Below, piece after piece: positions 6,446-42,462 of a DNA stretch of 48,442 nucleotides. The stretch is from assembly GCA_014762505.1 (NCBI GenBank), contig JABURS010000036.1, positions 1 through 48,442 on the forward strand, read 5' to 3'. The translations under genes were made by a program, and so were the position numbers. The stretch comes from Chromatiales bacterium. GTDB taxonomy: Bacteria; Pseudomonadota; Gammaproteobacteria; SpSt-1174. Numbering within the stretch: position 1 is the stretch's first letter; every line of letters begins with the position of its first letter. The notes under the pieces are model-generated. The model saw only the letters and a program-made list of their open reading frames with translations, had not been told where the DNA came from and searched no databases.

Positions 6446-6554
6446 GAGGCGCAAGTCGTCATGCCCATGCCCCCGGCAGGCGGCCAGCCCTCTGGCCGAT
6501 GGGCGTTCGTCAGGCAGGGCCGTTATCGCCGGGAGGGCTCGGCTCCCACCACGC

Positions 6555-6585
6555 AAAAGGCCCGGGGCAATGGCCCGGGCCTTTT
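6555..6585. terminator. bidirectional intrinsic terminator
   Basis: AAAAGGCCCGGG (6555-6566) pairs perfectly with CCCGGGCCTTTT (6574-6585) around a 7-base loop. A-tract on one side and T-tract on the other make it functional in both directions, between the convergent trmH and ompW-like genes. Confidence 0.85.
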
Positions 6586-6648
6586 GTCACAGGTACCTCT
6601 CTATACCCTCGGTGTGCCCTGCGGCACGACCAACCGGGGATTCGGCCC

Positions 6649-6685
6649 GGCGTGAGGCAATAGGCCCCTCACGCCTGAGGCCTCA
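6649..6685. repeat. TGAGG-type hairpin near gene ends (copy A)
   Basis: GGCGTGAGG (6649-6657) pairs with CCTCACGCC (6667-6675), immediately followed by the palindrome TGAGGCCTCA (6676-6685). Related hairpins built on GTGAGG occur at 7488-7517 and 32037-32074, each just 3' of a gene. Confidence 0.6.
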
Positions 6686-38618: not shown

Positions 38619-38707
38619 TTGGAAAGGCTCCTCGAGTAACGAATTTGGGATTTTTGCGCTGGTCTTGGGGACCCCCGACAAACGGGGTGCTGCAAAAATG
38701 GCCGAAC

Positions 38708-38736
38708 TATATACCATAGAAGCCCCAAGCCCGCAA
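38708..38736 (-). promoter_or_regulatory. sigma-70 promoter of cytochrome c4
   Basis: Minus strand: -35 TTGCGG (38736-38731), 17-base spacer, -10 TATATA (38713-38708). Predicted start near 38701, giving a leader of about 80 bases. Divergent engB is 38 bases beyond the -35. Confidence 0.65.
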
Positions 38737-38773
38737 AAATTAATGCTTTTCACACCGAGGCACTCAGGATTAC

Positions 38774-39403
38774 ATGCACCCCGTCTACAATCAGGCCCGC
38801 TTCCTCAAAAGCGCCCCCAACGCCCGCGCCCTGCCCCCCGATGAGGGCTTCGAAGTGGCCTTCGCCGGCCGCTCCAACTCGGGCAAGTCGAGTGCCATCA
38901 ACACCCTCTGCAGCCAGCGCGCGCTGGCCCGCACCAGCAAGACGCCGGGGCGCACCCAGCTCATCAACGTCTTCGACCTCCCCGCAGGCCGGCGCCTCAT
39001 CGACCTGCCGGGCTACGGCTATGCCAAGGTGCCGGAGAAGATCCGCAAGGACTGGGGACAGATGATCGGCGGCTACCTGGCCGGCCGCGCCTCGCTGCGC
39101 GGCCTGGTGCTGGTGATGGACATCCGCCACCCGCTCACCGACTACGACTGGCAGATGCTGGACTGGTGTCATCACCGCGCCCTGCCGGTGCACATCCTCC
39201 TGTCCAAGGCCGACAAGCTCAAGTTCGGCGCCGCCCGCAACACCGTGCTCCAGGTGCAGAAGACCCTGCGCGAGCGCGGCCTCGCGGCCACCGCCCAGCC
39301 CTTCTCCTCGCTGAAGAAGACCGGCACGGAAGAGGCCTATGCCGTACTGGATACCTGGCTGGAATGGCCGACAGACGAACAGCCGGCCGATCACGGGGTG
39401 TAG
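38774..39403 (+). CDS. engB: ribosome biogenesis GTPase EngB/YihA
   Basis: 209 residues. P-loop GRSNSGKSSAINTL (G1), T-loop KTPGRTQLI (G2), DLPGYGYAK (G3), LLSKADKL (G4) are all in place. Essential GTPase for 50S subunit assembly, usually ~200 residues. Divergent from cytochrome c4 and convergent with polA, an arrangement shared with enterobacteria (polA-spf-yihA) and pseudomonads (polA-ersA-engB). Confidence 0.95.
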   Translation: MHPVYNQARFLKSAPNARALPPDEGFEVAFAGRSNSGKSSAINTLCSQRALARTSKTPGRTQLINVFDLPAGRRLIDLPGYGYAKVPEKIRKDWGQMIGGYLAGRASLRGLVLVMDIRHPLTDYDWQMLDWCHHRALPVHILLSKADKLKFGAARNTVLQVQKTLRERGLAATAQPFSSLKKTGTEEAYAVLDTWLEWPTDEQPADHGV

Positions 39404-39544
39404 GGCCTGTCACAGAGGAAAATGGCACGCAGCGGGTCCACCGGGATCGAAGATCGGGCGTCGCTGCACCGGGGTCAGGATCACAAGCGCATGGGGGCGC
39501 AGGGCTTTCCACTCTGTGCCCTCTGTGGCGAAAAACAACCAGGC

Positions 39545-39586
39545 AAAAAAATGCCCCGATCTTCTTTGGGGGGCGAAGATCGGGGC
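39545..39586 (-). terminator. strong intrinsic terminator of candidate sRNA / polA
   Basis: On the minus strand GCCCCGATCTTC (39586-39575) pairs perfectly over 12 bp with GAAGATCGGGGC (39564-39553) around a 10-base loop, then A and seven Ts (39551-39545). There is no T-tract on the plus strand, so it serves minus-strand transcripts only. Confidence 0.92.
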
Positions 39587-39669
39587 CAGTCACCGGCTCG
39601 GCTTGGGGAGTCCGAGCCTTTACCCGCTCAGGGAGGGAAGCGGGAGGATAAGCGCCGGGCTAAGCGCTC
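39545..39669 (-). ncRNA. candidate ErsA/Spot 42-position small RNA, ~125 nt
   Basis: Predicted from its signals in the 350-base engB-polA gap. Start near 39669 (7 bases below a sigma-E-like -10), end at the T7 tract at 39545. Read on the minus strand it folds into three hairpins: CCCGCT (39645-39640) / AGCGGG (39629-39624) with loop TCCCTCCCTG; GGCTCGG (39617-39611) / CCGAGCC (39600-39594) with loop ACTCCCCAAG; and the terminator stem with loop GCCCCCCAAA. All three loops are C-rich, and TCCTCCC at 39650-39644 is complementary to a Shine-Dalgarno. The location equals Spot 42 in enterobacteria and ErsA in Pseudomonas. I cannot compare sequences or show expression. Confidence 0.65.
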
Positions 39670-39675
39670 AATTAC

Positions 39676-39702
39676 TCTGACTCTGCCTCGGAGGAAAAGT
39701 TC
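39676..39702 (-). promoter_or_regulatory. sigma-E/AlgU-like promoter for candidate sRNA
   Basis: Minus strand: GAACTT (39702-39697), 16-base spacer, TCAGA (39680-39676). The AlgU/sigma-22 consensus is GAACTT-N16/17-TCtGA. No sigma-70 pair of similar quality is visible here. The -35 overlaps a small hairpin, GTTCTG / CAGAAC, which may be coincidence. Confidence 0.6.
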
Positions 39703-39753
39703 TGTTGGGGCACAGAACGCTTCGGGGACGCTGTCTAGGCTCGGGGCGCAGAG

Positions 39754-42462
39754 TCAGTGCGCTTCATCCCAGTTGTTACCCTCACCCGTATCGACTTCCA
39801 GCGGCACGCGAAGTTCCGCCGCCTCCTTCATCAGGGCCACGATGCGCTCGCGAGCCGCGTCCACGGCGCCCTCGTCCACCTCGAACACCAGCTCATCGTG
39901 CACCTGCATGATCATGGTGACCGGCGGATGCGCCTGCTGGATCCAGCCATCCACCGCGATCATGGCCCGCTTGATGATGTCGGCGGCCGGGCCCTGCATG
40001 GGGGCGTTGATGGCGGTGCGCTCGGCGTACTGCCGGCGCTGGGCGTTGCGGGCGTTGATCTCGGGCAGATACAGGCGCCGGCCGAACACCGTCTCCACAT
40101 AGCCCTGCTCGCGCGCCCGCTCTCGGGTGGCGTCCATGTACTCGCGCACGCCCGGATAGCGGCTGAAATAGAGGTCGATGTATTCCTGCGCCACGCCGCG
40201 CTCCACGCCGAGCTGGCGCGCCAGGCCGAAGGCGGACATGCCGTAGATCAGGCCGAAGTTGATGGCCTTGGCCGCGCGCCGCTGGTCGGCGGAGACGGCC
40301 TCGGGTTTCACGCCGAAGACCTCGCCGGCGGTGGCGCGGTGGATGTCCTGGCCGGCCGCGAAGGCCTTGAGCAGCCCCTCGTCGCCGGACAGGTGCGCCA
40401 TGATGCGCAGCTCGATCTGCGAATAGTCGGCGGCGAGGATGCGCCGGCCCTGCGGTGCGACGAAGGCCTGCCGGATGCGCCGGCCCGCCTCGGTGCGCAC
40501 CGGGATGTTCTGCAGGTTGGGGTCGGAGGAGGAGAGCCGTCCGGTGGAGGCCACCGCCTGGTGATAGGAGGTGTGCACGCGCCCGGTGTCGGGGTCGATC
40601 TGTTCGGGCAGCCTGTCCGTGTAGGTGGACTTGAGCTTGGCCATGGAGCGGTGCTCGAGGATGATGCGCGGCAGCGGATAGTCCAGCGCCAGCTGCTCGA
40701 GCACGTCCTCGGCGGTGGAGGGCACGCCCTTGGGCGTCTTGCGGATGACCGGCAGCCCCAGCTTGTCGAACAGGATCTCCTGGATCTGCTTGGGCGAGCC
40801 CAGGTTGAATTCCTGCCCGGCCTCGTCGAAGGCCTGGCGCTCGATCTCACCCATGCGCTCGGCCAGCTCGTGGCTCTGGGCGAAGAGCTGGTCGGCGTCC
40901 ACCATCACGCCGGTGCGCTCCATGCGCGAGAGCACGGGCACCAGCGGGATCTCGATGGTCTCGTACAGCGCGCGCTGGCGCTCCAGCTGCTCGAGCTCGG
41001 GCCAGAAGCGGCGGTGCAGCTGCAGGGTCATGTCGGCATCCTCGGCCGCGTAGGGCGTGGCCGCCTCGATGCTCACCCGGTCGAAACTCACCTGTTTTGC
41101 GCCCTTGCCGGCCACGTCCTCGTAGGCGATGTTGCGGTGGCCGAGGTGCTTCTCGCAGAGCGTGTCGAGGTCGTGGCGGCTGGCCGTGGAGTTGAGCACG
41201 TAGGACTCGAGCATGGTGTCATGGCGGATGCCGTTGAGCTCGATGCCGTGGTTCGCCAGGACGTTGCGGTCGTACTTGAGGTGATGCCCGACCTTGGCCC
41301 GATCCGGATCCTCGAGCAGGGGTTTCAGCGCCTTCAGCACGGCGTCGCGGTCGAGCTGGGGCGGGGCGCCCGGGTCGTCGTGCCCCAGGGGGACATAGGC
41401 CGCCTCGCCGGGCTCGATGGCGAAGGACAGCCCGACGATGCGCGCGCGCATGTACTCCAGCGCCGTGGTCTCGGTGTCGAAGGCGAAGAGCTCGGCGGCC
41501 TCGAGCCGTTTGAGCCAGATGTCGAAGTCCGCCTGGTCGTGGATGGCCACGTAGCGCGCATCCTGTGGCTTCGGCGTCTCGGCCACCACCTCGCCCTCGC
41601 CGGCGGCCTCCAGCTCGGCCAGCCAGGTCTTGAATTCGTAGCGACTGAACAGCTCGCGCAGTCGCTCCTCGTCGGGCGCGCGCAGGTTCAGCGTCTCCGG
41701 CGTCTCGTCGAGCTCCAGGTCGCAGCGGATGGTGACGAGCTCCTTGGAAAGCGGCAGCTGGTCGACCGCCTCGCGCAGGTACTCGCCGACCTTGCCCCCG
41801 ATCTCGTCGGCGTGCTCGATCACGCCCTCCAGGGTGCCGTACTCTTCCAGCCACTTGAGCGCGGTCTTGGGTCCGCACTTGTGCACCCCCGGGACGTTGT
41901 CGACCTTGTCGCCGATCAGCGCGAGGTAGTCGACGATGCGCTCCGGCGGCACGCCGAACTTCTCCTTCACCCCCGCCACGTCCAGGGTGGTGTCGGTCAT
42001 GGTGTTGACCAGGGTGACGTGCTCGTTGACGAGCTGCGCCATGTCCTTGTCGCCGGTGGAGACCACCACCGGGATGCCCTTTTCCGCGGCCTGGCGCGAC
42101 AGCGTGCCGATGACGTCGTCGGCCTCGACCCCCTCGACCATCAGCAGCGGCAGCCCCAGGGCACGCACGATCTCGTGCAGCGGCTCGACCTGGGCACCGA
42201 GCTCGTCCGGCATGGGCGGTCGGGTGGCCTTGTACTCGGGGTACATCTCGTCGCGGAAGGTCTTGCCCCGGGCGTCGAAGACCACGGCCATGTGCTCGGG
42301 GTCGTAGTCCTTCAGCAGGCGACGCAGCATGTTGGCCACACCATACATGGCGCCGGTCGGCTCGCCCGCGGCGTTGGTCAGTGGCGGCAGGGCGTGAAAG
42401 GCCCGGTAGAGATAGGACGAGCCGTCGACGAGGACGAGGGGTTTGGGGATCTGCTTGGCCAT
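39754..42462 (-). CDS. polA: DNA polymerase I
   Basis: 902 residues, normal length. Three activities look intact: a 5' nuclease (~1-290; LVLVDGSSYLYRAFHA, VVDYLALIGDKVDNVPGV), a 3'-5' exonuclease (~310-490; LFAFDTETTALEYM, NSTASRHDLDTL, YAAEDADMTLQL) and a family A polymerase (~510-902; RRILAADYSQIELRIMAHLSGD, AAKAINFGLIYGMSAFGLA, MQVHDELVFEV). It fills gaps in repair and replaces Okazaki primers. Divergent from the LOG gene. 51 bases separate its stop from the candidate sRNA promoter -35. Confidence 0.97.
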   Translation of the reverse strand: MAKQIPKPLVLVDGSSYLYRAFHALPPLTNAAGEPTGAMYGVANMLRRLLKDYDPEHMAVVFDARGKTFRDEMYPEYKATRPPMPDELGAQVEPLHEIVRALGLPLLMVEGVEADDVIGTLSRQAAEKGIPVVVSTGDKDMAQLVNEHVTLVNTMTDTTLDVAGVKEKFGVPPERIVDYLALIGDKVDNVPGVHKCGPKTALKWLEEYGTLEGVIEHADEIGGKVGEYLREAVDQLPLSKELVTIRCDLELDETPETLNLRAPDEERLRELFSRYEFKTWLAELEAAGEGEVVAETPKPQDARYVAIHDQADFDIWLKRLEAAELFAFDTETTALEYMRARIVGLSFAIEPGEAAYVPLGHDDPGAPPQLDRDAVLKALKPLLEDPDRAKVGHHLKYDRNVLANHGIELNGIRHDTMLESYVLNSTASRHDLDTLCEKHLGHRNIAYEDVAGKGAKQVSFDRVSIEAATPYAAEDADMTLQLHRRFWPELEQLERQRALYETIEIPLVPVLSRMERTGVMVDADQLFAQSHELAERMGEIERQAFDEAGQEFNLGSPKQIQEILFDKLGLPVIRKTPKGVPSTAEDVLEQLALDYPLPRIILEHRSMAKLKSTYTDRLPEQIDPDTGRVHTSYHQAVASTGRLSSSDPNLQNIPVRTEAGRRIRQAFVAPQGRRILAADYSQIELRIMAHLSGDEGLLKAFAAGQDIHRATAGEVFGVKPEAVSADQRRAAKAINFGLIYGMSAFGLARQLGVERGVAQEYIDLYFSRYPGVREYMDATRERAREQGYVETVFGRRLYLPEINARNAQRRQYAERTAINAPMQGPAADIIKRAMIAVDGWIQQAHPPVTMIMQVHDELVFEVDEGAVDAARERIVALMKEAAELRVPLEVDTGEGNNWDEAH

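Follow-up and report, generated by a model that had tools for sequence, protein, structure and literature searches.

A predicted small RNA with C-rich loops in the engB/polA gap of a Chromatiales bacterium, its probable sigma-E control and its likely kinship with ErsA, sX13 and anti-hemB

What does the gap between the convergent engB and polA genes of a Chromatiales bacterium encode, and how is it related to the small RNAs described from this place in other bacteria? The window (the whole stretch of DNA that was analysed, 48,442 nt) contains the engB (ysxC/yihA) GTPase gene at 38774-39403 on the plus strand (TIGR03598, 231.8 bits), facing the DNA polymerase I gene polA at 39754-42462 on the minus strand (NF004397, 1237 bits). 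The gap very likely encodes a structured small RNA gene of about 128 nt, located at 39545-39672 on the strand of polA; its expression is inferred. The initial annotation, made from the sequence alone, had proposed a minus-strand small RNA between the two genes, with about 125 structured bases and a transcript start near 39669. The location held, based on the gene coordinates, the fold and the conservation at engB, and so did the structured length, whereas the start, now placed at 39672-39669, remains a prediction from the sequence.

Fold of the RNA and conservation at engB

The RNA is composed of four hairpins, and the segment 39672-39540 folds with -63.1 kcal/mol (z -6.2), a value that none of 200 shuffled sequences equalled. 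Hairpin SL0 (39649-39670, minus strand, as are all elements of the RNA) has the form UGAGCGCU-UAGCCC-GGCGCUUA, and its inner six pairs are kept in 93% of the cells of an alignment of 109 sequences (A3). SL1 (39623-39644) is formed by the stem CCCGCUU/GAGCGGG and the loop CCCUCCCU at 39637-39630, with 95% of the cells paired, and SL2 (39595-39618) by the stem GGCUCGG/CCGAGCC and the loop ACUCCCCAAG at 39611-39602, with 98% of the inner pairs formed. The last hairpin, SL3 (39545-39586), is an intrinsic terminator. Its stem and loop, GCCCCGATCTTC-GCCCCCCAAA-GAAGATCGGGGC at 39586-39553 with the loop at 39574-39565, contain 12 perfect pairs, and the basal pairs are kept in 98% of the cells. The perfect 12-bp terminator with T7 of the initial annotation is thereby upheld, except that an A stands between the stem and the T7 tract (AU7 in the RNA).

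Across the 109 sequences, standard pairs occupy 91.5% of the pair cells and two-sided changes occur at all 34 pairs. The covariation score is 0.558, compared with 0.176 for shuffled alignments (0 of 500 as high) and 0.046-0.081 for slid partners. The fitting of A3 to the model biases it towards the structure, but the slid controls were drawn from the same alignment. Unlike the linkers, the loops have abundant C and little G. In the SL1 loop, C makes up 57% and G 6% of the bases, and 102 of the 109 sequences have CCC there; CCCC is found in the SL2 loop of 93 and CCC in the SL3 loop of 85. The RNA described here carries three such C-rich loops, CCCUCCCU, CUCCCC and CCCCCC.

In a genome of the same genus, the RNA is 95% identical. 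The engB-polA gap of more distant genomes, inspected by eye, has the identical order of hairpins, and several of these genomes have GAACTT-N16-TCNNA upstream. Plain MAFFT did not align the stems of the first nine relatives correctly (A1), and six relatives were aligned by hand instead (A2) to build the covariance model R1, without any information on neighbouring genes. A second model, R2, was built from 109 R1 matches, with ErsA left out. The E-values of the model searches are rough. R1 matches 122 of 232 genomes of the class (Gammaproteobacteria), from 104 of 196 genera, and R2 raises the tally to 145 genomes and 123 genera. Above-cut-off Rfam matches for sX13 or anti-hemB exist in 14 of the 122 genomes, so most copies are unannotated.

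EngB was mapped in the same 232 genomes independently of R1, and 82 genomes list both. In 64 of the 82, no more than 3 kb separates the best R1 match from engB; the match is downstream in 63 of these and on the opposite strand in 58, and the median distance from the match to the end of the EngB domain is 56 bp. Among 110 fetched loci (stretches of up to about 1.5 kb on each side), 92 contain polA or engB: 44 have polA on the same strand and engB on the opposite one, 24 engB only and 18 polA only, while 6 are inverted and lie on the engB strand; the remaining 18 have neither gene in the fetched stretch. A second set consists of named genomes found by the exact SL1 motif, and R1 matches 70 of its 80 loci. 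The matches include Ectothiorhodospira mobilis, Thioalkalivibrio, Methylobacillus, Aquitalea, Pseudogulbenkiania, Paludibacterium, Collimonas, Crenobacter, Hydrogenophilus, Competibacteraceae and Steroidobacteraceae. This set is not fully independent, because it overlaps the first in part (loci L201 and L062 score identically). Chance matches to the SL1 motif in Geodermatophilus, Georgenia, Rhodopirellula and Chloroflexi gave no R1 match.

The features that define the R1/R2 family, namely a covarying fold of four hairpins, C-rich loops and an engB or polA neighbour, are all present in the window, where the RNA scores 130.6 bits with R1 and 116.2 bits with R2; the window itself is among the training sequences. 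The small RNA interpretation would have been refuted by a gap that is not conserved and lacks promoter and terminator in relatives. This is not the case, as all three are conserved at engB throughout the class.

Outside the class, the phylum-wide search with R2 yielded weak matches, with a maximum of 37.5 bits. Three genomes of one family in another class (G305, G277 and G247, family f177) have repeated weak matches of 30-37.5 bits, possibly a distant relative or a different C-rich-loop RNA. Within the window, a faint R2 match at 6551-6675 on the minus strand (14.9 bits, E 0.04) is probably due to chance.

Tandem and displaced copies were also observed. Locus L069 (G002 C15:12288-12586) contains two tandem RNA copies inverted to the engB strand, each with a sigma-E-type promoter, and locus L079 (G159 C33:13148-13903) contains four tandem copies adjoining engB, each with a promoter of the GAAC-TCTGA type. 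Tandem pairs are present in G219, G069, G097, G137, G117 and Ectothiorhodospira mobilis (L181). Moreover, R1 matches distant from engB (G023 C49:43665-44045, G117 C1:241269-241394 and G125 C1:911562-911673) may point to paralogous sibling RNAs.

The promoter and sigma-E control

The RNA is preceded by a promoter of the sigma-E/AlgU type on the minus strand. The -35 element GAACTT (39697-39702), conserved in relatives, is separated by a 16-nt spacer from the -10 element TCAGA (39676-39680), which is one base from TCTGA. The 48-kb window contains a single instance of GAACTT-N15-17-TCNGA, against 0.05 expected. Promoters of the relatives were scored against the 11 positions of GAACTT-N15-17-TCTGA, searched from -55 to +5 of the model start. 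Of 121 copies, 76 match at least 9 of the 11 positions, where shuffles predict 2.35 and slid windows 1.24, and 37 match at least 10 (0.13 and 0.26, respectively); the -10 element typically ends 3-5 nt ahead of the model start. In the second, named-genome set, 40 of 72 copies score 9 or more, against 1.3 expected. About a third of the copies lack a strong sigma-E match, and many of those score 8 at the same position. At the sX13-type loci, and also in G011 and L024, the upstream sequence looks sigma-70-like.

A point overlooked by the initial annotation is that GAACTT doubles as the 3' arm of a small terminator-like hairpin (GTTCTG..CAGAAC-TTTT, 39699-39718, minus strand), which is possibly the terminator of polA. 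A hairpin overlies the -35 element at just 2 of 76 related promoters, and is therefore a local feature; on this comparative evidence, the reading of GAACTT as merely a polA-terminator arm was set aside. In addition, the two tandem, inverted copies of G002, a member of the same family, carry GAACTT-N16-TCTGA and GAACTT-N16-TCACA. The rarity of the hairpin, together with promoters that travel with these inverted copies, supports the promoter reading of GAACTT. The earlier claim of a near-consensus AlgU/sigma-E promoter, GAACTT-N16-TCAGA, thus holds, and this class of promoter is conserved in relatives.

The genome encodes RpoE (323.6 bits), followed by RseA (PF03872, 8e-21) and RseB/MucB (PF03888, 6e-56), and also Hfq. 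Sigma-E control of this RNA is likely; the dependence is inferred from the conservation of the promoter and the presence of rpoE-rseA-rseB.

Relation to ErsA, sX13, anti-hemB and Spot 42

The initial annotation had described the locus as that of Spot 42 and ErsA and had suggested an ErsA-like RNA beyond Pseudomonas, agreeing in position, length and promoter class without any use of sequence similarity. No Rfam family matches the window at its own cut-off. At a lax threshold, three families match the same span of the minus strand: anti-hemB with 42.4 bits (E 9.8e-9), sX13 with 25.6 bits and ErsA with 25.5 bits. The claim of agreement without similarity therefore holds only in part, since similarity below the cut-offs exists.

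By score, the closest family is anti-hemB (RF02837; cut-off 49.5 bits, not reached), which is expressed as ncS04 in Burkholderia cenocepacia (PMC5688073). It shares the SL1 hairpin CCUCCCUGAGCGGG, the middle hairpin and the terminator, and many of its copies adjoin engB. It differs in that the Rfam model starts at SL1 and lacks SL0, that SL2 and SL3 are shorter, and that some genomes have tandem pairs away from engB. Anti-hemB is found above the cut-off in 12 class genomes, and all 12 are R1 loci. Two of the tandem pairs of anti-hemB type (L165 and L168) have AAACTT-N17-TCTTA promoters, with polA and engB absent from the fetched stretch.

The sX13 RNA of Xanthomonas (RF02232; cut-off 50 bits, not reached here) is 115 nt long and located 3' of polA. 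Its three stem-loops with apical C-rich loops (PMC3771888) have counterparts in the RNA described here. It represses mRNAs without Hfq, using its C-rich loops on G-rich motifs near start codons (PMC3771888). In contrast to the window, no sigma-E promoter was found at two sX13 loci, and engB does not adjoin there. R1, which had no sX13 sequence in its training, matches both genomes with above-cut-off sX13 at the same coordinates (E 1e-6 and 1e-5). Two sX13 genomes have a second R2 match of 41-45 bits (G014 C22:263769-263877 and G153 C1:926309-926411), possibly a sibling of sX13.

ErsA (Pseudomon-1, RF01719; cut-off 50 bits, not reached here) is situated in the polA-engB gap (PMC8575079), on the strand of polA, and is about 130 nt long. 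Its expression depends strictly on sigma-22 (PMC7565897), and the sigma-22/sigma-E promoter sequence is shared, with GAACTT-N16-TCAGA present at several Pseudomonas-type ersA loci. A difference lies between the first and second hairpins, a part that is an unstructured domain in ErsA and forms the CCUCCC hairpin SL1 in the RNA described here. Of the 17 sub-threshold RF01719 hits, 15 lie on R1/R2 loci or adjoin engB. The true ErsA locus of G151 scores 18.8 bits with R1 and 35.4 bits with R2 (E 3.4e-7), and the phylum-wide R2 search found seven further Pseudomonas-type genomes, in each of which the match is located between polA and engB and identified by Rfam as ErsA (127-139 bits). Homology to ErsA is thus supported by a model untrained on ErsA, and the body of the RNA is nearer to anti-hemB and sX13.

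Spot 42 (spf, RF00021) of E. coli also lies on the polA strand between polA and the convergent yihA (engB). No RF00021 match (cut-off 80 bits) was listed in the gap or the genome. R1 and R2 score spf at 14.0 and 18.1 bits, at the right strand and place and not significant for a genome. In E. coli, spf additionally specifies the small protein SpfP, of which no counterpart was seen here: a search for an SpfP-like protein found no ATG within 39672-39545 on the minus strand. Membership of Spot 42 was dropped for want of a significant match to RF00021, R1 or R2, and kinship is suggested by place alone and remains unproven. The overall interpretation of the initial annotation is therefore supported with two amendments, that the body is nearest to anti-hemB and sX13 and that the link to Spot 42 is one of place only.

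The RNA described here combines the promoter of ErsA with a body like that of sX13 and anti-hemB, and is a new member and a new combination. ErsA, sX13 and anti-hemB are likely to be other members of one engB/polA-locus family spread throughout Gammaproteobacteria including Burkholderiales, a relation that rests on the models. In this view, three Rfam families so far catalogued as unrelated become one, represented at engB/polA in 123 of the 196 sampled genera, and studies of ErsA and sX13 become comparable, with a shared place, similar loops and a different switch. In the open-access literature searched, no earlier unification was found beyond the sX13 discussion; most subscription journals were outside this coverage, and an earlier proposal there cannot be excluded. 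A bolder and merely possible reading is that a sigma-E-driven engB/polA RNA was ancestral to Gammaproteobacteria and gave rise to ErsA, sX13, anti-hemB and even Spot 42. Xanthomonadaceae may then have exchanged the promoter for a sigma-70 one, and enterobacteria may have placed it under CRP control, with the genomic place kept.

Rival readings and proposed mechanism

The first rival accepts a real and conserved RNA but attributes it to a sigma-70 promoter or to read-through from polA, with GAACTT serving only as an arm of the polA terminator. It is favoured by the hairpin at 39718-39699 and by the sigma-70-like sequence upstream of some relatives (G011, L024 and the sX13 loci). However, no sigma-70 promoter was found in 38700-40000, the hairpin is rare among the related promoters, and GAACTT-N16-TCNNA keeps a constant position across divergent genomes and moves with the inverted RNA of G002. 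We consider this reading unlikely. It is also improbable that the likeness to ErsA, sX13 and anti-hemB reflects convergence of unrelated C-rich-loop RNAs in a convenient gap. C-rich-loop RNAs do occur in distant bacteria (Staphylococcus RNAIII and Helicobacter HPnc5490; PMC3771888), weak R2 matches exist outside the class, the sigma-E promoter is missing from sX13 loci and the CCUCCC hairpin from ErsA. Against convergence, neighbour, orientation and hairpin order are all shared, ErsA and anti-hemB-type loci have the same promoter class and distance, and most sub-threshold ErsA hits (15 of 17) fall on R1/R2 loci or beside engB. The weakest rival, that the segment is only a strong terminator region between convergent genes, fits the convergent flanks and the strong terminator at the end, but is very unlikely in view of the four covarying hairpins, the conserved C-rich loops, the upstream promoter, the tandem duplicates and copies distant from engB, and the lack of a T tract after SL3 on the plus strand.

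The likely overall explanation is a trans-acting, sigma-E-controlled small RNA. There are no transcript data, and the expression, sigma-E dependence, loop mechanism and envelope-protein targets are all inferred. RseA would release RpoE (sigma-E/AlgU) and the GAACTT-N16-TCAGA promoter would become active, producing an RNA of roughly 128 nt, closed by its own terminator on the 3' side of engB. This RNA would be almost entirely folded and expose three C-rich loops. By the mechanism established for sX13, these loops may block translation of mRNAs by pairing with their G-rich motifs, either Shine-Dalgarno sequences or sites near the start. Hfq possibly assists, as it does for ErsA. By inference, we lean slightly towards the loop mechanism, and slightly away from envelope proteins as the main targets. 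Most copies of the family, many of them in uncultured lineages, are predicted to respond to envelope stress.

The search for targets was weak, since most G-rich start sites are simply Shine-Dalgarno sequences; no enrichment test was made and no target is claimed. In the genome itself, 44 sites have AGGGAGG near an ATG and 9 have the reversed pattern, an excess that Shine-Dalgarno sequences would be expected to produce. The hits include genes for a FadL-type outer-membrane protein and a NorC-like cytochrome. As an unproven candidate, the start of the FadL-type gene, AGGGAGGAAGACATG (L331; G000 C43, near 176237), could pair with the SL1 loop CCCUCCCU.
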